A stretch of 7,894 nt of DNA from positions 1-7,894 of the forward strand of contig JAQULX010000119.1 in the NCBI GenBank assembly GCA_028718465.1. Direction: 5' to 3'. The position numbers were made by a program, and so were the translations under genes. The DNA comes from Dehalococcoidales bacterium. GTDB taxonomy: Bacteria; Chloroflexota; Dehalococcoidia; Dehalococcoidales; UBA3254. How positions within the stretch are numbered: the stretch's first letter is position 1; the number at the start of each line of letters is the position of its first letter. Below the pieces are notes generated by a model that was given only the letters and a program-made list of their open reading frames with translations, was not told the origin of the DNA and made no database searches. Shown here piece by piece: positions 4 to 7,894 of this stretch.

Positions 4-24
4 ATTAATCTTTAATCTTTAATC
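4..24. repeat. Three short tandem repeats downstream of the methyltransferase gene
   Basis: Three consecutive 7-bp units ATTAATC, TTTAATC, TTTAATC lie at the 3' end of the operon and overlap the last codon and stop of the methyltransferase. Only three short AT-rich units are visible and the window ends here, so it may be a chance low-complexity run or the edge of a longer array. Confidence 0.4.
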
Positions 25-882
25 ACAAATTCCGTCCCCCTTCCTCCACCATACCAGCGCCCATTTGGAGTATCCTTCATGGGTAAGAACTGAAGAACCT
101 TTTACTTCACTGAACTTTCTTTCCAGGAATTCAGTGAGAAGCGCCAACTCTTTCGGGTTGAAAGTCTCTGTCCGCCACTGCACTTCATCAATGGCCTGTT
201 CGATGCTGGAAAACTGGACCTTGATCCGGGAGTGAAGGACTTCCACATTGGCCTGGATACCCATTTGATATAGCATGTTGCAGATATAGATATATGGCGG
301 ATGCTTCTTCCCATTTCGACCGATAACCTTATATACTTCCCAGTCAAACGGGAGATGGACGATTGGGAAAGTGAGGTAGGCGGCCTGCCGGGTAATGGAG
401 ATGATATGGGAGAGGGCTTCTTTCATATCTCCGGACATCAGGGAGCGAGAGGCTACCACAACATCATGGGGGCTTATCAGATGGTTAGTACAGGCGTCAT
501 TCCAGGACGAATTGATATACTGGATATTGCTTAGTGCGTTTTTTCCTGCATTTTCCTTTAAATATTTCAGCATCTCCGGGGAAAGGTCCAGGGCGGTCAC
601 ACTTTTAGACTTTTTTGCCAAAGGGACCGCCAGCGTTCCCGGACCGCAGCCGATATCCAGGACGCTCCAATCCGATTGAACTTCGATTCGATCCAGCATT
701 TTGGAGATATAGTCATCTTTGTCCAGGTCTTCTTTACCTTCCGCGACTCGACTGATTCGTTTATTGAAACCGGCTGCCCGCCGGTCCCACAGGTCTTTTC
801 GGGAACAGTTGTTTTTACCCCGGTGGGAAGGCGAGGATTCAGCCTGCCACATGGCATTCCAATCTATTGTGTTAAAGTCCAT
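19..882 (-). CDS. Class I SAM-dependent methyltransferase of the Mo/W importer operon
   Basis: This 287-residue protein is probably a cytoplasmic, soluble S-adenosylmethionine-dependent methyltransferase. Motif I, VLDIGCGPG (residues 74-82), is the canonical SAM-binding glycine loop. The acidic residue at the end of strand beta2 is D99 in TALDLSPEML. The Rossmann core covers about 55-175. The C-terminal part (about 175-287), rich in tryptophan near the end, is not a module I recognise and may hold the substrate site. The N-terminus MDFNTIDWNAMW followed by LWDRRAAGFNKR at 31-42 resembles methyltransferases that I recall near FmdE/FecCD genes in anaerobes. The ATG is supported by an AGGTG site 4 nt upstream, and the gene starts 18 nt after the ABC-FmdE stop, so it is the last gene of the operon. 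The substrate is unknown; methylation of a metal ligand or a small molecule linked to metal uptake is only a guess. Confidence 0.85.
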   Translation of the reverse strand: MDFNTIDWNAMWQAESSPSHRGKNNCSRKDLWDRRAAGFNKRISRVAEGKEDLDKDDYISKMLDRIEVQSDWSVLDIGCGPGTLAVPLAKKSKSVTALDLSPEMLKYLKENAGKNALSNIQYINSSWNDACTNHLISPHDVVVASRSLMSGDMKEALSHIISITRQAAYLTFPIVHLPFDWEVYKVIGRNGKKHPPYIYICNMLYQMGIQANVEVLHSRIKVQFSSIEQAIDEVQWRTETFNPKELALLTEFLERKFSEVKGSSVLTHEGYSKWALVWWRKGDGICD

Positions 883-900
883 ATTTCACCTCGTATTTGT

Positions 901-2286
901 TTATTTATTTTCGCTGTAATACTTGCCGTTGGCACAGGCCCGGCAAAGCGTTTTACCTTCCCGAATTACCTCCCGGCCGTCCATGACCCTCTCACTGCAA
1001 ATTGAACAGTAAGATTTATTCTTTGGAGGACCCGGCAAATCATTTTCAGGGATGTCGATTTGTACTTCTTGCAGAATCACCATTTCCTCATCGGGAGTCC
1101 GGGCAATTATCCGGGAGATTTCCTCAATCGGGCCGTTGCTGTCAAAACTTTCTTTGATGGATGCTCTCAAAGATTTTCCGGTATCCAGATTGATGAAGGT
1201 GGCTGCAAACTTGCCGTAATCGATATGCTTCAAGGAGCGGTGTCCCAGGGAACAGCCGGTAACTACCTGGACGGCATCCGTCATGCAGCGGTCGATTTCC
1301 GCATAGACTATCAGGTTTTTATTTTTAATGCCCGGGTCAAGTCCCAGAGCCTTCATGGCTGCCAGGGCTATCTTGGTCCCCAGGGCGATTCCCGCGCAGA
1401 CGTGCCCGTGATAATCCCCTGCCTTTTTCAGATAAAACTCAAAACCGTTCATAAATCCTCCCAAATTAATGATATTTTTACTCTCAGTGGATGGTACGCA
1501 ATCTTCCATCGGCACACAAATTTTCCGATTGATTCCGGAATCCACCTCTAATACTTTTACCTTGATGTTATAAACTTTTTCCAGATTATTATCCGTCATC
1601 ACTTTTTCCGGGGTTCCTATATCGAGAAACGCGCCATTCTGCATCAGGGCCACTTTACTGGAAACCAGGAAAGCATGGTCCGGAAAATGTGAAGTCATGA
1701 TAATCGGCAGGCCGGTAGCCGATAACCTCCTGACAATCCTTAACAGGCGGACCTGGTTGCCGAAATCCAGATGGGAGGTCGGCTCATCCAGCAATAGCAA
1801 GGAGGGCTGCTGTGTCAGCACCCTGGCGAACATCACCATTTGCCTTTCACCCCCGCTGATCTGGGTATATGGCTTATCTCTCAGTTGGGCGATCCCCATA
1901 GCCTCCAATGACTCTTCGGCAACGCGGATGTCATCAGTGCCCGGCGAGGCCAGCAGTCCCAGGTGAGGAGTCCGGCCTACCAGAACAGCATCCAGGACTG
2001 AGAAGGGGAAAACCGGCTGGTGCATCTGGGGCACATAGCCGATAGACCGGGCTATCTCAGCCCGCGGCATCCGGGAAATATCCCGGTTATTTATCGTAAT
2101 GCTTCCCTGGTGCAGCTTAACCAGGTTATTGAGGCATTTCAGCAGGGTAGTCTTTCCGCACCCGTTTGGTCCCAGAATAGACAGGACTTCCCCTTCTTCC
2201 ACCGTGAAACTAACGTCGGAAAAGCCGCTGGTCATGGATGGGTCATAATGATAGGCGGCTTCCCTGACTTCTAATGTCAAGCCCAT
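901..2286 (-). CDS. ABC transporter ATPase fused to an FmdE domain with C-terminal zinc ribbon
   Basis: This is a 461-residue fusion. Residues 1 to about 255 form a FecE/BtuD-type ABC ATPase: Walker A GPNGCGKT (39-46), Q-loop Q87, signature SGGER (144-148), Walker B LLLLDE (163-168), D-loop SHLD and H-loop H200. All catalytic residues are present, so it should energise the permease encoded just upstream. After a linker (about 255-278), residues 279-410 are an FmdE domain, named after formylmethanofuran dehydrogenase subunit E: HGHVC (293-297), DRC (332-334), GCSLGH (344-349). A zinc-ribbon-like tail has C427-x2-C430 and C448-x2-C451. FecE-type ATPases are usually about 250-270 residues, and FmdE is usually a separate protein of roughly 150-200, so the join is unusual. 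The start codon overlaps the permease stop by 10 bp and has GGAGG 6 nt upstream. A metal or pterin-cofactor handling role for FmdE is inferred, not shown. Confidence 0.92.
   Translation of the reverse strand: MGLTLEVREAAYHYDPSMTSGFSDVSFTVEEGEVLSILGPNGCGKTTLLKCLNNLVKLHQGSITINNRDISRMPRAEIARSIGYVPQMHQPVFPFSVLDAVLVGRTPHLGLLASPGTDDIRVAEESLEAMGIAQLRDKPYTQISGGERQMVMFARVLTQQPSLLLLDEPTSHLDFGNQVRLLRIVRRLSATGLPIIMTSHFPDHAFLVSSKVALMQNGAFLDIGTPEKVMTDNNLEKVYNIKVKVLEVDSGINRKICVPMEDCVPSTESKNIINLGGFMNGFEFYLKKAGDYHGHVCAGIALGTKIALAAMKALGLDPGIKNKNLIVYAEIDRCMTDAVQVVTGCSLGHRSLKHIDYGKFAATFINLDTGKSLRASIKESFDSNGPIEEISRIIARTPDEEMVILQEVQIDIPENDLPGPPKNKSYCSICSERVMDGREVIREGKTLCRACANGKYYSENK
1450..1462 (-). promoter_or_regulatory. 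Internal ribosome binding site and ATG at the ABC/FmdE boundary
   Basis: On the minus strand GGGAGG (1462-1457) lies 4 nt before an in-frame ATG (1452-1450), which is Met279 of the fusion. From this ATG the product would begin MNGFEFYLKKAGDYHGH, which looks like a normal FmdE N-terminus. The site could yield a free FmdE of 183 residues beside the full fusion, or it could be the relic of a once separate gene. Confidence 0.6.
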
Positions 2287-3401
2287 CCTTTGCCTCCTCT
2301 CTTCAATAGATAGATGAAGAAAGGCGCCCCGATGATGGCTGTAAGGATCCCGATGGGTATCTCAACACTGGCTACCAGCCGGGCGATATCATCAATCAGC
2401 AGCAAATACGCTGCTCCCAGCAGCAGGCAAACAGGTATCAATCGCTTATGGTTCGGTCCTACCAGGAGGCGCCCAATATGGGGTATGACCAATCCCACCC
2501 AGCCGATAGTGCCGCTGATGCAGACCGCCGAAGCCGTGATCATAGTGCAGCAAAGCACAATGATGGTGCGCAGCTTTCCGGTATCAACCCCTAATGCCTG
2601 GGCTTCTTCCTCCCCCATAGCCAGCACGTTGAACCTCCAGCGGATCAGGATGAGGATTGTAATGCCGGTCAGCATGGGTATTGCTGCAAAGAGCAGGTCC
2701 TGGTTTTTGATGGAAGCCAGACTGCCCATCAGCCAGTAGGTGATTGCGGGAAGCTGATCGATGGGGTCCGCGGCATATTTCATCAAGGCCAGAAAAGCCC
2801 CGAATAATGACCCGATAGCCATACCGGCCAGAATCAGGCTGAGGGTAGGATTCCCCTTTACGATCCGGCTGACGAAAAAGGAAACTCCGACGGCCAGCAA
2901 GGCAAAACAGAAAGCCGATATTTCGATGGCAATCCAATTGCCGGATATCAAAATCGCTAGGGCGGCCCCGAAACCGGCACCCTGGGAAACTCCCAGGATG
3001 TCCGGCGAGACCAGGGGATTGCGGAAAAGCCCCTGAAAAGAAGTTCCGGCCAGAGCCAGGCTGGCCCCGATTAGCATGGCAGCTAATATTCTCGGCAGCC
3101 GGATTTGCATCACTATCGTATCCCAGATGTCGGGATAGGTATGAGCCAGTGGTAGAACTTGAGATGCCGCATCTCTGGCAAAGTCCGGTGTGATGTTATA
3201 TATCAGTACTGCAAACTGATATATCAGTACTTTGATTACATCCGGGGGTGATACTGGATACCTGCCCAGGGCAAAAGAGATGAGGAAGAGGCCCACCAGT
3301 ATCATCAGCAAGATGGTGACGGCCGGTAACCCGTTAATTCTCCGCAAGCAGGAAAATGCCGATTTCCCGGAATTTGACTTTAATTTCGCAGCAGTTGCCA
3401 T
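2277..3401 (-). CDS. FecCD/BtuC-family ABC transporter permease, probable molybdate/tungstate import
   Basis: This 374-residue integral membrane protein is the permease of a type II (BtuCD-like) importer, acting as a homodimer in the cytoplasmic membrane. It has the repeated hydrophobic segments expected for about ten transmembrane helices, starting near residue 25. The family motif QGLFRNPLVSPDILGVSQGAGFGA is at 123-146 and the family-typical C-terminus GAPFFIYLLKR is near 359-369. It is somewhat longer than the usual 330-350 residues because of a polar N-terminus and a longer loop between the first two membrane segments (about 65-95). It begins 6 nt after the binding-protein stop and ends overlapping the ATPase start. 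Its own ribosome site (AGAGAG) is weak, so translational coupling is likely. The sequence alone does not show the substrate. The family moves iron-siderophores, B12, haem and, in MolBCA, molybdate/tungstate; the riboswitch context favours the last. Confidence 0.9.
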   Translation of the reverse strand: MATAAKLKSNSGKSAFSCLRRINGLPAVTILLMILVGLFLISFALGRYPVSPPDVIKVLIYQFAVLIYNITPDFARDAASQVLPLAHTYPDIWDTIVMQIRLPRILAAMLIGASLALAGTSFQGLFRNPLVSPDILGVSQGAGFGAALAILISGNWIAIEISAFCFALLAVGVSFFVSRIVKGNPTLSLILAGMAIGSLFGAFLALMKYAADPIDQLPAITYWLMGSLASIKNQDLLFAAIPMLTGITILILIRWRFNVLAMGEEEAQALGVDTGKLRTIIVLCCTMITASAVCISGTIGWVGLVIPHIGRLLVGPNHKRLIPVCLLLGAAYLLLIDDIARLVASVEIPIGILTAIIGAPFFIYLLKRGGKGWA

Positions 3402-3407
3402 ATCTCT

Positions 3408-4604
3408 CTAACTCGGATTAGCTAATAGTTGTTCCAATTCCTGGTCTGTCAGATCGTAATGGAAGAATTTGGAATAAAACTCTTTTACCCTGGCATTCAG
3501 GTCCAGGTCTTTAGTTTTCTCCGGATAGAGCTTGTTTATCATCCAGTACATCCCCACCATCTGGCAAGGACCGGGAGGACCGTCAAACCAGGAGAACGGA
3601 TTGTCCGGGCGGATGGCAGCCTGTTTGTTTTTCACCGCTCTCAGCTGGCCCCAGCGCGAATCACTTAAAATGGTCTTATACAGAGTCGCCTGGCTGCCCC
3701 GTCCGATGATCACCTTATCCGGGTCCCAGAGCAGGATTTGCTCTAAGGAAGCATCCGCCATACCGTAGCCGGGCTTGAGGGTAACCTGGGCGACATTGAT
3801 ACCACCGCAGAATTCCAGAAGACGGGTGTGCATCGAACCGACCGGGTCGGTACTGAAGCCTTCTTTACCTTCGGCATAGTAGACCTTGATCCGGTCCTTT
3901 TCAGGAACGGTCGCCACAATCGCCTCCACATAGCTCATCGCTTCTTTATAGTAGGCAATCAGGCTCTCTGCCCGGTCCTGCACGCCCAGCAGGTCTCCCA
4001 GAAAGCGGATTTCGGCTTCGTATCCTGTCAGTGCGTCATCAGCGTAATTAGTTGTCTCTTCTCCTGCTTTGAGCCCTACTACCGGGATTGAACCGAACTT
4101 TTCCTGTCGTTCATTTATATTGGCTTCCGTACCTTCCAGGATGATGTCCGGCCTGGCCGCAATAAAGGTCTCGTAGTTGCCCGTCTGGGTGCCAAACCAG
4201 CCTCCGACCACCGGCAGATTTTTGTATTTTTCCGGCACCAGGGCCGGGTTGCCGTTGAAAGTAAAGCTCAAACCAGCCAGTTTATCCGGCGCCAGCAAAT
4301 AGACCATCTGCATCTCTATCGGTCCCGAGGTCAAGACACGGTTGATGGCCGCCGGTACGGTTAAATTCCGTCCATACATATCGGTGATAGTGCGGGTAGT
4401 TGGCGCAGGTGAAGCAGGTTTGGTAGCCGCTGGCGTTGGTACCGGTGATGCTGTTGCAGCAGAAGGCGCCGCTGAAACGGCAGGTGAGGATGTTTGGGGA
4501 ATCTGGTTTTCTGTACTACAGCCTGTCAGGCTTATGCTTAGAATAACACTGATAAGTGCTAATAAGATTCTTATTGGGATTTTGTTTTTCACGCTATACT
4601 CCAT
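3408..4604 (-). CDS. Lipoprotein substrate-binding protein of a FecB/MolA-type metal importer
   Basis: This is the extracytoplasmic solute receptor of the importer, first gene of the operon. The 398-residue reading has a basic n-region, a hydrophobic helix (11-25) and a lipobox LTGC with lipidated C29, so it is membrane-anchored. A long Ala/Pro/Ser/Thr linker (about 36-72) follows. The binding domain opens with TRTITDMYGRNLTVP, the usual start of type II metal/siderophore binding proteins, and runs to the end with two lobes, including FIAARPDIILEG and LLWDPDKVIIG, typical 'the substrate is at this site' strands of the family. ATG at 4604 has no Shine-Dalgarno site. A GTG at 4592-4590 (Val5 of this reading) has GGAG at 4602-4599 with 6 nt spacing, so the true protein may start MKNKIPIRILL (394 residues). 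Homology, lipobox and neighbours make the role secure; the ligand (molybdate or tungstate) is inferred from the leader RNAs. Confidence 0.9.
   Translation of the reverse strand: MEYSVKNKIPIRILLALISVILSISLTGCSTENQIPQTSSPAVSAAPSAATASPVPTPAATKPASPAPTTRTITDMYGRNLTVPAAINRVLTSGPIEMQMVYLLAPDKLAGLSFTFNGNPALVPEKYKNLPVVGGWFGTQTGNYETFIAARPDIILEGTEANINERQEKFGSIPVVGLKAGEETTNYADDALTGYEAEIRFLGDLLGVQDRAESLIAYYKEAMSYVEAIVATVPEKDRIKVYYAEGKEGFSTDPVGSMHTRLLEFCGGINVAQVTLKPGYGMADASLEQILLWDPDKVIIGRGSQATLYKTILSDSRWGQLRAVKNKQAAIRPDNPFSWFDGPPGPCQMVGMYWMINKLYPEKTKDLDLNARVKEFYSKFFHYDLTDQELEQLLANPS
4599..4602 (-). promoter_or_regulatory. Shine-Dalgarno site favouring a GTG start for the binding protein
   Basis: The minus strand reads ATGGAG-TATAGC-GTG. 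The GGAG sits inside the first ATG codon pair and is ideally placed (6 nt) for the GTG at 4592-4590. The ATG at 4604-4602 is preceded by an A/T-rich run without any purine-rich site. The shorter start is preferred, with the signal peptide then MKNKIPIRILLALISV. Confidence 0.6.
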
Positions 4605-4642: not shown

Positions 4643-4669
4643 TTGGGTGTTACAAGCTCATTTTGCCCA

Positions 4670-4724
4670 CCTCCCTTTCCATACATCATGGCCTCAATAA
4701 CAGACCTGAGAACTGGAAAGGAGG
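4670..4724 (-). promoter_or_regulatory. Leader hairpin pairing CCUCCUUUCCA with UGGAAAGGGAGG
   Basis: In the minus-strand transcript CCUCCUUUCCA (4724-4714) can pair with UGGAAAGGGAGG (4681-4670), with one bulged G, closing a loop of about 32 nt just after the last terminator. The 5' arm is also complementary to the 3' end of aptamer A (UGGAAAGGAG, 4820-4811). It may therefore be an alternative pairing partner that frees or hides purine-rich, ribosome-site-like sequence. This is seen by eye only, and no folding energy was calculated. Confidence 0.4.
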
Positions 4725-4748
4725 GACTATGAGTGCAAATAAGCAAGA

Positions 4749-4785
4749 TAAAAAAATAGCACCCCTCGAACAAGAGGATGCTATT
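4749..4785 (-). terminator. Intrinsic terminator of riboswitch A
   Basis: On the minus strand AAUAGCAUCCUC pairs with GAGGGGUGCUAUU around a six-base loop UUGUUC, followed directly by a run of U (A at 4750-4756 on the plus strand). The stem begins 23 nt after the last base of aptamer A. It lies upstream of the transport operon, so it is an attenuator rather than the end of a gene. The stem could also work in the other direction, but no plus-strand gene precedes it. Confidence 0.85.
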
Positions 4786-4808
4786 ATATTATTACCCTGG
4801 CTCATATT

Positions 4809-5038
4809 TTCTCCTTTCCAATTCGGGAAACAGCACCGTTTTCAGTACTGCCGTCGATCCTGCACATTCCTTAAAGGGGTTTGGGCGAAGCCCATCAGGA
4901 TAGCGTTACCCGGAGGAGTCTGGGGCAAGCCCCGGTAGTATAGCGGGTACTCTTTGGATGCTCCCTTTAGAATGCCGGATGCCGACTGTCGGCCTTGTCC
5001 TTAAAACATAAGGATTTAGGCCTGACAGCTCCGGAGAA
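4809..5038 (-). ncRNA. Riboswitch A: Moco-type aptamer with a ~116-nt insertion
   Basis: This minus-strand RNA is closed by P1 UUCUCC (5038-5033) with GGAGAA (4814-4809). Next comes CUCCGGAGCUGUC and a long second stem in which CUGUC (5028-5024) pairs with GACAG (4990-4986), extended by GGCCU/AGGCC and UCCUU/AAGGA. The segments UCGG and CGACGG bracket the central arm. The stem CAGUACUG-AAAA-CGGUGCUG (4850-4831) and the end UUUCCCGAAUUGGAAAGGAG complete it. The same elements occur in riboswitch B with compensatory changes. The 3' end matches the Moco riboswitch (Rfam RF01055) as I remember it from the E. coli moaA leader. Unlike B, the central arm between 4977 and 4860 carries about 116 extra bases built largely from two hairpin repeats. 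The Moco call rests on memory of the consensus; that the two RNAs are homologous is seen directly. Confidence 0.72.
4875..4950. repeat. Two tandem ~36-bp hairpin repeats inside riboswitch A
   Basis: Plus-strand copies at 4875-4909 and 4914-4950 share the pattern AGGRGTYTGGG...AAGCCC...TATAGCG or GATAGCG, then TAC. Each centres on a short GC-rich hairpin: TGGGCGAAGCCCA at 4882-4894 and GGGGCAAGCCCC at 4922-4933. The two are clearly related but not identical. They sit in the central arm of aptamer A and are absent from B, so they look like small palindromic elements that entered or multiplied in the loop of the RNA. Confidence 0.65.
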
Positions 5039-5097
5039 TCATCTTTATTTTCTTTTGCGACAAAATTAACATAAAACCGGTTATTCAGAATTCATTG

Positions 5098-5108
5098 GAA
5101 AGGATAAG
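5098..5108 (-). promoter_or_regulatory. CUUAUCCUUUC element between the two riboswitches
   Basis: The minus-strand sequence CUUAUCCUUUCCAAU, just after terminator B, is complementary over 11 bases (UCCUUUCCAAU) to the end of aptamer A (AUUGGAAAGGA), and nearly as well to the end of aptamer B. Transcripts from the upstream promoter would contain it before aptamer A is made, so it could compete with the aptamer for its 3' strand. A near copy, TTATCCTTTC, lies in the promoter spacer at 5349-5340, which suggests the whole module was duplicated. Confidence 0.4.
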
Positions 5109-5148
5109 GCGAGGCTGGTATCAATGCAGGACTTTGCCCGGAGAAGAA

Positions 5149-5184
5149 CAAAAAAGCGCATTCTCAACATAAGAAAGCGCTTTT
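5149..5184 (-). terminator. Intrinsic terminator of riboswitch B
   Basis: On the minus strand AAAAGCGC (5184-5177) pairs with GCGCUUUU (5159-5152), with inner UUCU/AGAA pairs, and ends in six U. It begins 23 nt after the last base of aptamer B, the same spacing as in unit A, which supports a common aptamer-plus-terminator module. A-runs on both sides mean it could also act on plus-strand transcripts. Confidence 0.8.
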
Positions 5185-5207
5185 CTATGATAGGTTAACA
5201 TCATTCC

Positions 5208-5317
5208 TTCTCCTTTCCAAATCGGGAAGCTATGCCGTTTCCAGCAAAGCCGTCGAGATATTTCATCTACCGACTGTTTACCTTGGATTGCTCTTTAGGT
5301 AAAACAGCTCCAGAGAA
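5208..5317 (-). ncRNA. Riboswitch B: compact Moco-type aptamer
   Basis: This minus-strand RNA of about 110 nt starts some 8-10 nt after the predicted transcription start. P1 is UUCUCU (5317-5312) with GGAGAA (5213-5208). The second stem pairs CUGUUUUACC (5307-5298) with GGUAAACAG (5282-5274). A small central arm AGAU/AUCU lies inside UCGG...CGACGGC. The next hairpin (5250-5229) pairs GCUUUGCUG with CGGCAUAGC across a GAAA tetraloop, one U-U mismatch apart. The 3' end is GCUUCCCGAUUUGGAAAGGAG, which from memory closely resembles the end of the E. coli moaA Moco riboswitch. Compared with unit A the helices are kept while many paired bases differ, so this is a conserved structure. The ligand could be the molybdenum or the tungsten cofactor, and the sequence does not decide. 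Confidence 0.75.
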
Positions 5318-5326
5318 CTAAAACCC

Positions 5327-5356
5327 ATATTATCACTTATGAAAGGATAACGTCAA
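5327..5356 (-). promoter_or_regulatory. Sigma-70-type promoter of the riboswitch-controlled operon
   Basis: On the minus strand TTGACG (5356-5351) is followed after 18 nt by TAATAT (5332-5327); GATAAT two bases earlier is an alternative -10 with 16 nt spacing. Transcription would start near 5320, immediately before aptamer B. No comparable promoter is evident directly ahead of aptamer A, so one transcript probably carries B, then A, then the four genes. Confidence 0.7.
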
Positions 5357-5374
5357 ATCGCTAAGCTTGCGATT
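5356..5374. promoter_or_regulatory. Inverted repeat touching the -35 box, possible operator
   Basis: AATCGC and GCGATT flank TAAGCTT, a 6-bp inverted repeat with a 7-bp spacer that abuts the -35 box of the operon promoter. The position suits a DNA-binding regulator. It does not resemble a ModE site as I remember it, and chance occurrence is possible. Confidence 0.35.
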
Positions 5375-5660
5375 GGCTGGAGGTTGCAGGTGCAGCCATC
5401 TTATCTTTTTTTACAGGGCCTCAACCATACCTTAACTTCGCCGCCGCGAATAACCATACCATTGCCAAAGTGGGAACTACATTTTCCACGCTTGAAACGC
5501 CTGGTAAGATGAGGATCTCACCATGGTATGTGTTTAATAGCAGGCACTCACCGGATATCACCGGATGCCCCGAAGCATCTCAGAGTGGGGTGGCCCCTCT
5601 CTCCTCTATATTCTTTAATCATTAGTAACTATTTAGGTCTATTTCCAAAGTAGACTGCTC
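5375..5660. other. Region without a recognised gene, containing inverted and direct repeats
   Basis: No convincing gene is seen on either strand. The plus strand stays open from about 5364 to a TAG at 5623-5625 but lacks a plausible start, and the minus strand has a 50-codon open stretch ending GEILILPGVSSVENVV then AAAKLRYG; neither matches a family I know. Structural features are CATACCAT near 5453 facing ATGGTATG near 5523, enclosing GTGGGAA/TTTCCAC and TGAG/CTCA hairpins, and a direct repeat of TCACCGGAT at about 5548-5566. It may be decayed coding sequence or an untranslated RNA. Confidence 0.4.
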
Positions 5661-5690
5661 TTGAAACAATGATAGTAAACCGGCTATATA
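5661..5690 (+). promoter_or_regulatory. Possible plus-strand promoter
   Basis: TTGAAA (5661-5666) is followed after 18 nt by TATATA (5685-5690). The fit is moderate. The only reading frame downstream is the short fragment at 5728-5925, which has no ribosome site, so this may be a chance match. Confidence 0.25.
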
Positions 5691-5727
5691 TCAGTAAAGC
5701 AAAACGTGGTATTTTTAGCGGTATAAT

Positions 5728-5925
5728 ATGTTACTCCATATACATGGATACCAGGCATCAAGTTTCGGAATTAATGAATCTTACCAGGCCAGAGCTTATC
5801 GCTATAATAGTGACATTTCGATTACCATTGAACGAACATTGGGATGTACGTTAAATTGGGCGTATAGCTACAATGGCGATACCAAAGAATCAAACCTTGA
5901 TACCAACCTCGTGGGAGTAAAATAA
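5728..5925 (+). pseudogene. Possible C-terminal remnant of a beta-barrel outer-membrane protein
   Basis: The 65-codon frame has alternating hydrophobic/polar strands (DISITIER, LNWAYSYN, NLVGVK) separated by polar turns, a pattern of the last strands of outer-membrane beta-barrels. It ends GTA AAA TAA TTC TGG TAA. Without the TAA the protein would finish GVK-x-FW, and an aromatic final residue is the usual barrel signature. There is no Shine-Dalgarno site at the ATG, and the frame is closed by a TAG a few codons upstream, so this looks like the 3' stump of a larger gene whose front is missing. I do not recognise a specific family. If correct it argues for a diderm host or donor. It could also be a chance frame. 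Confidence 0.3.
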
Positions 5926-6159
5926 TTCTGGTAAGGGCTTACACCATATGAACTCCAGGCAGTTTATAAAACAATCGCATATTAAATACTGGTTTACCTT
6001 TCCTGGAGGGGGAAACGAGAGAGACTCAATCTCTACATTGAAACACAGCGTTTTTTTAATACAGCTTCCAAACCAATATCACCAGTTATGTCATTCAGGG
6101 GGGCTAGGTCATATTTAATAGCAATAAGTTCTTACCTTGTCTCATAAATTTCTTATCTC
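5926..6159. other. Spacer between remnant and STAND gene, no clear gene
   Basis: About 230 bp with no ribosome-site-preceded frame. A small GAGAG-N-CTCT inverted repeat lies near 6017-6034. One short minus-strand open stretch (6033-6131) is listed separately. I see no convincing terminator for the minus-strand ATPase gene that ends at 6160. Confidence 0.4.
6033..6131 (-). pseudogene. Short coding-like scrap, perhaps from a transposase N-terminus
   Basis: A 32-codon minus-strand stretch reads YDLAPLNDITGDIGLEAVLKK within a stop-to-stop frame that lacks a start codon. The pattern 'ITGDIGLEAVLKK' is reminiscent of the N-terminal region of IS1634-like transposases, where a short helix precedes a cysteine/phenylalanine motif. 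The match is by impression only, and no terminal inverted repeats or target duplication were found. It may be noise. Confidence 0.2.
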
Positions 6160-7894
6160 TCAATTAACCAACCTTTTTGGCATAACAGTGTTCGGAACCT
6201 TATTTCTTGACTTTTCCCCAGTAGCTCCAAAAAGTTGTTTGGCTGTAGCCATTTTAATAAGATACTTTAATTCGCGTAACGTGTCTGGAGATGCAAAACT
6301 ATATTTATATTCACTACCTAGCCGAATATATATGTCCATAAGGTAAAATGAATTCTTCGGAATAGACTCGATATATTCTCGTACCTGCGTTACCCAATCG
6401 CGAGGCCTTTGTTTAGCTAATAGCAATATAATATTGTGTTTTTTGAGATCATCGTTTTCTTTGTTCAATTGCGCGATCAACAAAGGCCCCATCTTATGTG
6501 AATATAGGTCGTCCTTAAACCATGTGACGACATTATCTGGAATTACACCCAATATATTATTAAACCTCTTTTCAGGAGTGTCCCCAAAATTTCCTAACAA
6601 GAGGAAATTTGCCCCATCGAATGTAGCTGTTTTTTCTGTGGCAAGTAATGGGGTCAAAGCCACTATTACCTTCATTATTTGTTTCCACGCCTCTATGATT
6701 TCTTCAAACATTTGACGCTTAATATTAGGGGAAACATAATCACTATTTCGAAGTGCTCTCGATGCCGCCTTCACTGTCTGCATCAATATTACTAAAGAAT
6801 ACTCCTCAAAAATGTTTCTCACTTCCTGGTAATACGGTTTTGCTGGGTCATACTGACGATCAGCATATTGATCTTTGACTGAGTCAGGTAATTTTGAATC
6901 CTTCACGCCATCACTTACTTCACTGTGCATTCGTTCAAGTGTTTTTTCAGATGGTTTCCATCGCGCAAATCGATATGGATTCAACTCATCGGGGAGACCA
7001 CTTTTGTCCTGCACTTTTTTGCGAATAATTTGCATATCTTTTAATAACACATTTAAGGCGTCTTCACGTCGACGATCAATTCCTGTATAAAACTCAATCA
7101 TTTCTGGAAAGTTGGCATACCGCGTATCCTCGAAAATGAAATTGGCAAAATTTTTGTCATTATACATTCTGTGTGCTGCAAAGTAATAAATCCAATAAGT
7201 AAACCGAAAATTAAAGCTATTGCCATGATTAACTAAAATATTGTTATCATATAACATATCGAATAGAACTTGAACTTCAAGGTCTATGACCATATCTTTG
7301 CAGAATTGTCCTAAAGTAGTTAAGAATTCATCCCGTGTAAAAGAATATTGGCTCTTCCTGAGCATGCCCTCACAAAAATATCCCAATACATATTCACAAT
7401 CCTTCAAGTCTGGACGACTTTTATATGTAGGAATTTCGGTATTAAAAATAAGAAATAGGACTCTTTTTAGCATTTCGGTACGATTTACAGGGCTTTCATC
7501 AAAATCAATTTCTGATACTTTTAGCAAAGTCAGGCAATTTAATGGGGTTCGATGAAGGTTGAGCATTTCTAGGTCTGATACCACTCTTGATACAACTGAA
7601 TCATCATCACCTATACGTTTTTTCTCATTATATTCAGAAACAACCTTACGTACATTCTCACGAGTAAGTGACCATAAATATAGAATGTTAAATTCTCTAT
7701 CCTGAAGCGTTTGACTTGATTCGTCGGCAAAGTTAATATCATCAGTAGCCTGCAAGATGATGATTGGAGCATCACCAGACAAACTAATAATGTTTTTTAA
7801 AAGCGTTAAAGATATTTTGTCATGATTATTCCATGAATCGAGGATTATACATTTAATATCTTGCATTTTACATCCAAATATCTCGAGTTCGCCT
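6160..7894 (-). CDS. STAND/NACHT-like P-loop ATPase, C-terminal part (5' end outside window)
   Basis: The frame is open through the right edge of the window (7894), and the first ATG (7866) has no ribosome site, so the gene is 5'-truncated by the window and at least 577 codons remain. Counting from Met at 7866, CIILDSW (6-12) fits a Walker B strand, and APIIILQATDD (33-43) fits the following sensor strand. LYLWSLTRENVRKVVSEY (62-79) and LHRTPLNCLTLLKV (104-117) fit the helical/winged-helix lid of STAND ATPases. FNFRFTYWIYYFAAHRMY (218-235) resembles the 'FRH..F.EYFAA' helix of NACHT proteins. The rest is helical with no recognised sensor repeats. The missing part should hold Walker A and an effector such as a nuclease, TIR or phosphoesterase. 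Base composition is clearly more AT-rich than in the transport operon, suggesting separate ancestry. A role in phage defence or signalling is inferred from the family only. Confidence 0.6.
   Translation of the reverse strand, partial: GELEIFGCKMQDIKCIILDSWNNHDKISLTLLKNIISLSGDAPIIILQATDDINFADESSQTLQDREFNILYLWSLTRENVRKVVSEYNEKKRIGDDDSVVSRVVSDLEMLNLHRTPLNCLTLLKVSEIDFDESPVNRTEMLKRVLFLIFNTEIPTYKSRPDLKDCEYVLGYFCEGMLRKSQYSFTRDEFLTTLGQFCKDMVIDLEVQVLFDMLYDNNILVNHGNSFNFRFTYWIYYFAAHRMYNDKNFANFIFEDTRYANFPEMIEFYTGIDRRREDALNVLLKDMQIIRKKVQDKSGLPDELNPYRFARWKPSEKTLERMHSEVSDGVKDSKLPDSVKDQYADRQYDPAKPYYQEVRNIFEEYSLVILMQTVKAASRALRNSDYVSPNIKRQMFEEIIEAWKQIMKVIVALTPLLATEKTATFDGANFLLLGNFGDTPEKRFNNILGVIPDNVVTWFKDDLYSHKMGPLLIAQLNKENDDLKKHNIILLLAKQRPRDWVTQVREYIESIPKNSFYLMDIYIRLGSEYKYSFASPDTLRELKYLIKMATAKQLFGATGEKSRNKVPNTVMPKRLVN

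Follow-up and report, generated by a model that had tools for sequence, protein, structure and literature searches.

The Moco RNAs of Rfam family RF01055 are the closest described relatives of the locus considered here. In E. coli, genetics supports OFF control by the family member on Moco production, and transporter genes under Moco RNAs have also been published (PMC2408646). According to the available portions of that study, RNAs with a P3 stem are assigned to Moco and those lacking P3 to the tungsten cofactor, and the P4 loop is GAAA in all but five of 176 Moco RNAs (PMC2408646). Regulski et al. (2008) described tandem Moco RNAs in Syntrophomonas wolfei and Geobacter metallireducens; the S. 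wolfei triple has putative terminators after its first two units (PMC2408646). Thirteen Moco doublets and two triplets were counted in a review of tandem riboswitches, in the part available (PMC9481103). Such tandems are expected to give steeper control, described as more “digital” and, by the review, as “pseudo-cooperative” (PMC2408646, PMC9481103). Here, a 7,894-nt stretch of DNA from a Dehalococcoidales bacterium (contig JAQULX010000119.1, assembly GCA_028718465.1), hereafter the window, is compared with these systems.

The tandem, its terminators and the operon behind it

The first-pass annotation of the window had proposed two tandem Moco-type RNAs on the minus strand, with shared and covarying stems, an intrinsic terminator at the same distance from each, one good promoter, and a metal importer operon downstream. 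In the direction of transcription, the features are as follows (G001 and G186 are two of the genomes compared):

5329..5356, minus strand: putative sigma-70-type promoter, TTGACG-16-GATAAT, 10 of 12 positions matching
5194..5327, minus strand: unit B, upstream Moco riboswitch aptamer of the P3-plus type with a 4-bp P3 (hairpin 5268-5256); RF01055, 50.1 bits
5148..5188, minus strand: intrinsic terminator of unit B, hairpin of -19.1 kcal/mol (z -5.3) with a T run
5095..5109, minus strand: anti-tail of unit B (repeat I2), a complement of the aptamer B tail (5220-5206) at 14 of 15 nt
4795..5048, minus strand: unit A, downstream Moco aptamer with a long P3 arm and an AAAA P4 loop; RF01055, 33.3 bits
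4857..4980, minus strand: long arm on P3 of unit A, bearing two CGCUAU-N4-hairpin modules, from sequence comparison with G186
4750..4785, minus strand: intrinsic terminator of unit A, hairpin of -16.0 kcal/mol (z -5.0)
4710..4733, minus strand: anti-tail of unit A (repeat I1), able to form Watson-Crick pairs with the aptamer A tail (4824-4801) at 20 of 24 nt
4650..4680, minus strand: second tail-like element, consisting of a Shine-Dalgarno sequence GGAAAGGGAGG, an AUG and a 3-codon ORF (MSL stop), from alignment with unit 2 of G001
3408..4592, minus strand: substrate-binding protein (PF01497), by family match, start by comparison with G001
2277..3401, minus strand: FecCD-family permease (PF01032), by family match
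901..2286, minus strand: ABC ATPase, FmdE domain and DksA/TraR-type zinc finger in one protein (PF00005, PF02663, PF01258)
19..882, minus strand: methyltransferase-domain protein (PF13649)

Both RNAs matched RF01055 over model positions 1-135 in cmscan. Unit B (5327-5194) lies above the curated gathering score of 36 bits (E 6.7e-10) and unit A (5048-4795) below it (E 5.5e-5), and the proposed pair of minus-strand Moco-type RNAs was borne out in this form. No other Rfam family matched the window at E ≤ 1. When aligned to the model, unit A has 126 nt at the P3 position, where the model has 13, and this insert is presumably the cause of its low score. Plain folds of the aptamers were only moderately better than those of shuffled sequences (unit B, z -1.94, 4 of 200 shuffles equally good; unit A, z -2.98, 1 of 200). 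In an alignment of both window units with four relatives, 31 pairs were predicted over P2-P5, and 15 of them stay paired through two-sided changes. These compensatory pairs sit in P2, P3 and P4; in P5 the changes are all one-sided, and P1 is absent from the six-sequence consensus. P1 and P5 were aligned by cmscan in both units, with some outer P1 pairs non-standard. P1 is present in the plain fold of unit A and partially present in that of unit B alone, and it does not form when unit B is folded unconstrained up to its own terminator.

The P4 loop is GAAA in unit B and AAAA in unit A; a noisy parse of 158 sequences gave GAAA in 100, AAAA in 4 and none in 14. In P2, whose bulge would hold the receptor for a GNRA tetraloop in P4, both units keep CCUAA, with CAAGG on the partner side, for which CATGG (34) and TATGG (29) are the commonest forms among parsed relatives by rough counts. 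The core of unit A is 71% identical to that of unit B and 70-72% identical to those of unit 2 of G001 (70%) and both units of G186 (72% for unit 1), vs. 60% for unit 1 of G001; these values are compatible with either an ancient or a recent origin of the tandem.

Neither terminator hairpin was equalled by any of 200 shuffles, and in each unit 23 nt separate GGAGAA from the terminator stem, in agreement with the first-pass annotation on both points. The window holds two complete aptamers, each with its own terminator platform, as in tandem pseudo-cooperative riboswitches. The single good promoter was upheld in its position, ending some 11 nt ahead of the P1 stem of unit B, and no minus-strand promoter between units B and A is listed in the promoter scan. 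It is the position rather than the score that supports it, because the scan gave 4 sites vs. 1.9 (sd 1.5) expected. Upstream of the promoter, positions 5360-6160 comprise about 800 nt without a convincing gene, including two short plus-strand ORFs with no Pfam match. A large minus-strand ORF at 6160-7893, open at the window edge, encodes an nSTAND NTPase domain (PF24406); it also matches the anti-phage system DS8, but weakly and far under the cut-off.

Downstream, the metal ABC importer operon was recovered as FecCD-type genes with an FmdE domain on the ATPase, and its substrate is probably molybdate or tungstate. The ABC ATPase, FmdE domain and zinc finger are fused in a single protein within this FecCD-type operon. 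By comparison with G001, the binding protein likely starts at a GTG at 4592 with GGAG upstream; the ORF listing places the start at the ATG at 4604. Among the 120 of 886 binding-protein relatives listed, the few with an organism name belong to Dehalococcoidia, Dehalococcoidales, Bathyarchaeia, Bacillota or Chloroflexota.

Relatives of the tandem and the P3 region

Nine loci of binding-protein relatives were compared, and one of them, locus L001 in G001, had RF01055 matches at E ≤ 0.01. There the same tandem was found (59.2 and 46.3 bits, both over the gathering score), ahead of a binding protein 67% identical over residues 2-397 and 77% identical over residues 65-397. Conservation among homologous leaders thus extended to this locus; no Moco RNA was found at this threshold at any other of the nine, one of which (L002) has just 28 bases upstream and could not reveal one. 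At locus L008, a SECIS_3-like match was found at 867-925 on the plus strand (39.2 bits, under the gathering score of 63). A plasmid search for homologs of the leader gave no match.

On a wider scale, RF01055 matches (E ≤ 0.01) were present in 92 of 294 sampled genomes of the class of G001, probably Dehalococcoidia. Inspected by eye, the list for these 92 genomes contained 10 close tandem pairs (same strand, less than 300 nt apart) in nine of them, namely G117 (twice), G194, G216, G139, G001, G186, G070, G244 and G060. The G070 pair was counted even though its first unit falls under the RF01055 cut-off, and a pair about 920 nt apart in G151 was left out. Close pairs also occur in G422 and G495, additional genomes that belong to a single order. 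Long P2-arm extensions were seen in the Moco RNAs of L154 (G212) and L155 (G124), with matches of 204 and 189 nt, and these extensions carry repeated CGGAAGG-like segments.

The automatic parse of the P3 linker gave no result for 15 of 158 sequences and placed many P2 ends wrongly, and was used only together with inspection. By eye, P3 is lacking from both units in G117, G194, G216, G139, G070 and G244 and present in both units in G001, G186 and the window; G060 is mixed. In the window, P3 pairs as AGAU/AUCU in unit B (4 bp) and as AUCC/GGAU, continued by the long arm, in unit A. These pairs change with compensation in the six-sequence alignment, and both units are of the P3-plus type.

This bears on the suggestion of the first-pass annotation that the two units, differing strongly in their central arms, might prefer the molybdenum and the tungsten cofactor, respectively. 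A two-input gate, with one unit for Moco and the other for the tungsten cofactor, would suit the large size difference between the P3 regions. However, the published marker of tungsten-cofactor RNAs is the absence of P3 (PMC2408646), arm length is not a published discriminator, and in G186 a homologous arm belongs to the first unit of a tandem that precedes an SBP_bac_11-type ABC importer. Because both window units are P3-plus, such a gate was rejected for the window and is highly improbable. A better candidate for Mo/W two-input control is the mixed tandem L075 (G060:C22; 17256-17122 and 16867-16748, minus strand), where the first unit has P3 and a terminator and the second is without P3. At L075, a third Moco RNA on the opposite strand is followed by importer genes read as Tup-like.

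The long arm of unit A has its two CGCUAU-N4-hairpin modules at 4945-4922 and 4905-4882. When compared with unit 1 of G186, it has 67 identical positions against a stretch of 88 bases in G186, whose importer probably carries molybdate. The pattern CGCTAT-N4-ATGGGCTTCGCCCAA, allowing up to 2 mismatches, occurred once in one of 393 genomes, inside a Moco RNA, and had no match in the viral contigs searched. A covariance model built from two sequences (R1) gave one strong match in the 393 genomes and two at E 0.035 and 0.058; over 16 sources it recovered the window and G186, from which it was built, and two weak further matches. The arm is thus not supported as a dispersed repeat. It is not supported as a known RNA either, since Rfam gave it no match of its own at E values up to 10; a PyrR match at chance level (E 3.6) overlaps its 3′ edge. 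The structure of the arm is putative: no compensatory change is visible in the alignment of window and G186, and when the arm was folded by itself, 86 of 200 shuffles were equally good (z -0.18). What speaks for it is solely the conservation of its sequence at the equivalent position in two operons. From the arm it could be learned whether an additional sensing module can be accommodated at P3, a question that matters because P3 is the proposed discriminator between Mo and W.

Tails, anti-tails and leader ORFs

The regions behind the aptamers were surveyed in 156 Moco RNAs of relatives and the two window units, of which 152 of 158 could be parsed for tail and terminator with a terminator finder made for the analysis. 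A complement of 8-9 of 9 nt to the tail core lies between the tail and the terminator end in 20 of 97 terminator-type units; with the core reversed as a control, the figure was 0 of 98. Competition between tail pairing and the terminator would be expected to leave such an excess. The window units reach 5 and 6 of 9 inside the terminator, within the control range. Their duplexes between tail and terminator arm rank 70th (-7.2 kcal/mol) and 90th (-5.5 kcal/mol, unit A) of 98, with a median of -9.75; over a longer stretch the unit A duplex reaches -8.0. An antiterminator of the conventional kind is weak in the window because the complement inside the terminators is poor and the tail/arm duplexes rank low. 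Candidate routes to antitermination are this weak tail/arm pairing, translation of a leader ORF, and capture of the tail by an anti-tail.

The anti-tails lie downstream of their respective terminators and were equalled by 0 (unit A) and 1 (unit B) of 5000 dinucleotide shuffles, at lengths (24 and 15 nt) set after the repeats were known. With a fixed 15-nt tail, tested in 97 of the 98 terminator-type units (one had too little sequence), unit B came 1st (p 0.0025) and unit A 4th (p 0.035). Values of p ≤ 0.05 were obtained for four of the 97, two of them the window units; anti-tails were therefore rejected as a general feature of terminator-type Moco RNAs, and within this set they appear peculiar to the window, a view taken from one sequence. 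In a duplex-energy scan including the terminator, unit A ranked 1st and unit B 15th by z of 145. An inverted repeat of this type was not found in L001. In an unconstrained fold of the full read-through RNA, the mean pair probability was 0.82 for I1 and 0.06 for I2, which reaches 0.79 in a shorter transcript.

Alternative folds give the anti-tail of unit A a second partner at 4682-4657. When aptamer A was forced in folding, the anti-tail moved to this partner and the mean unpaired probability of the later Shine-Dalgarno element fell from 0.38 to 0.20. The tail-like element at 4650-4680 aligns with the tail and the three-codon ORF (MGP stop) of unit 2 in G001, which suggests that an insertion of terminator A and its anti-tail may have separated an ancestral aptamer tail from the operon.

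Of the 98 terminator-type units, 57 have an ATG at a distance of 3-13 nt behind the tail, vs. 7-20 of 98 in five control windows; of the 54 other units, 36 have one, vs. 6-12 of 54 in control windows. Most of the ORFs are shorter than 60 aa (53 of 57 and 29 of 36, respectively). Those of the window, 27 codons from 5204 and 39 codons from 4805, each span their own terminator. Selection for leader-ORF length was not supported in a frame control (n = 57), as frame 0 is no longer than the other frames: median lengths in frames 0, 1 and 2 were 42, 70 and 50 nt, and the terminator was reached by 50, 51 and 51 ORFs and passed by 26, 34 and 31. A similar leader peptide, MGNKLR(I/A)MLGR..., is encoded behind the tail of unit 2 in three P3-lacking tandems (L037, L083 and L092, in G194, G117 and G216), with synonymous differences in G216.

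Proposed control of the importer operon and comparison with described tandems

The family matches, terminators, covariation, tandem in one relative and tail/anti-tail complementarity were observed directly, and they point with good probability to two complete Moco riboswitches in series that serve as OFF attenuators of the ABC importer operon. We infer the ligand, the import substrate and every dynamic step; the OFF direction would follow from family membership, from the terminators and from the antiterminators seen in relatives. With abundant Moco, each aptamer would close P1 with its GGAAAGGAG tail, and the terminator behind it would stop transcription; a polymerase past the first gate would meet the second, so that repression would multiply. 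When Moco is scarce, both units would be read through. In the read-through RNA, the anti-tail of unit A may capture the freed aptamer tail and leave the later Shine-Dalgarno element more open; with aptamer A closed, it may instead cover this element, which suggests an added, weaker checkpoint at the level of translation.

That the anti-tails have no switching role, being by-products of local duplication or serving a plus-strand ORF, is less probable than not but a real contender. Anti-tails were not found in L001 and are rare among the 97 units, and an ATG at 4729 behind GGAAAGGAGG falls within the plus-strand ORF 4663-4938; against this, both units have an anti-tail at the equivalent element, matched by almost none of the shuffles. 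It is unlikely that only unit B works as a Moco switch and that unit A, decayed or re-purposed, provides constant attenuation through its terminator. Such a loss would be in keeping with a score under the gathering threshold, the AAAA P4 loop and one of the weakest tail/arm duplexes, but the P2-P4 pairs of unit A are mostly kept through compensatory changes, its core is closer to G001 unit 2 and both G186 units than to G001 unit 1, its terminator is strong, and its low score is presumably due to the 126-nt insert.

We likewise doubt that termination is controlled mainly through translation, with a ribosome on the leader ORF, started from the tail Shine-Dalgarno and the AUG behind it, blocking the hairpin unless Moco closes P1. 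The excess of ATGs after the tail and the two window ORFs, which cross their terminators where the conventional antiterminator is weak, would fit such control; however, the frame control was negative, with frame 0 passing the terminator less often than frames 1 and 2, and the AUG could be structural. A further reading, in which unit A is a composite switch whose P3 arm is a grafted extra domain that binds a protein or a small molecule and whose tail is used twice, is comparably improbable. If true, the tail would act first in termination, the anti-tail past the terminator would then toggle between aptamer tail and Shine-Dalgarno/AUG, and transcription and translation would come under one aptamer. 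The locus and its relatives place a Moco tandem before a FecCD-type importer, and make a test case for two questions, namely if control is sharpened by serial aptamers and if a single aptamer can govern both transcription and translation.

Compared with the RF01055 RNAs in the available portions of the family's description (PMC2408646), the window units share the whole-model match, the GGAAAGGAG tail, CCUAA in P2, a terminator platform and transporter genes downstream. Unlike them, unit A carries an arm of roughly 120 nt on P3 and closes P4 with an AAAA loop, and both units have their better tail complement beyond the terminator. The S. wolfei triple and the G. metallireducens tandem also consist of complete units in series, with terminators after the first two units in S. 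wolfei, but the triple is P3-lacking whereas the window tandem is P3-plus (PMC2408646). In the part of the review available, Moco tandems precede cofactor biosynthesis genes (PMC9481103), in contrast to the FecCD/FmdE importer of the window. The extended-P3 RNA of G186 (C20:51559-51368) is similar in its homologous arm with a CGCUAU-N4-hairpin module and in its tandem before an ABC importer, and differs in having one module rather than two, on the first rather than the second unit, and a different transporter family. In open-literature searches that did not name either feature, a long P3 arm and a post-terminator anti-tail are not mentioned in the available portions of PMC2408646 and PMC9481103 or in the passages of PMC12452182, PMC13390414 and PMC7266159. 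Overall, tandem Moco riboswitches with serial terminators are an already known arrangement (PMC2408646, PMC9481103), and the window tandem is of this known kind, with two unusual structural features, the long P3 arm and the post-terminator anti-tails.
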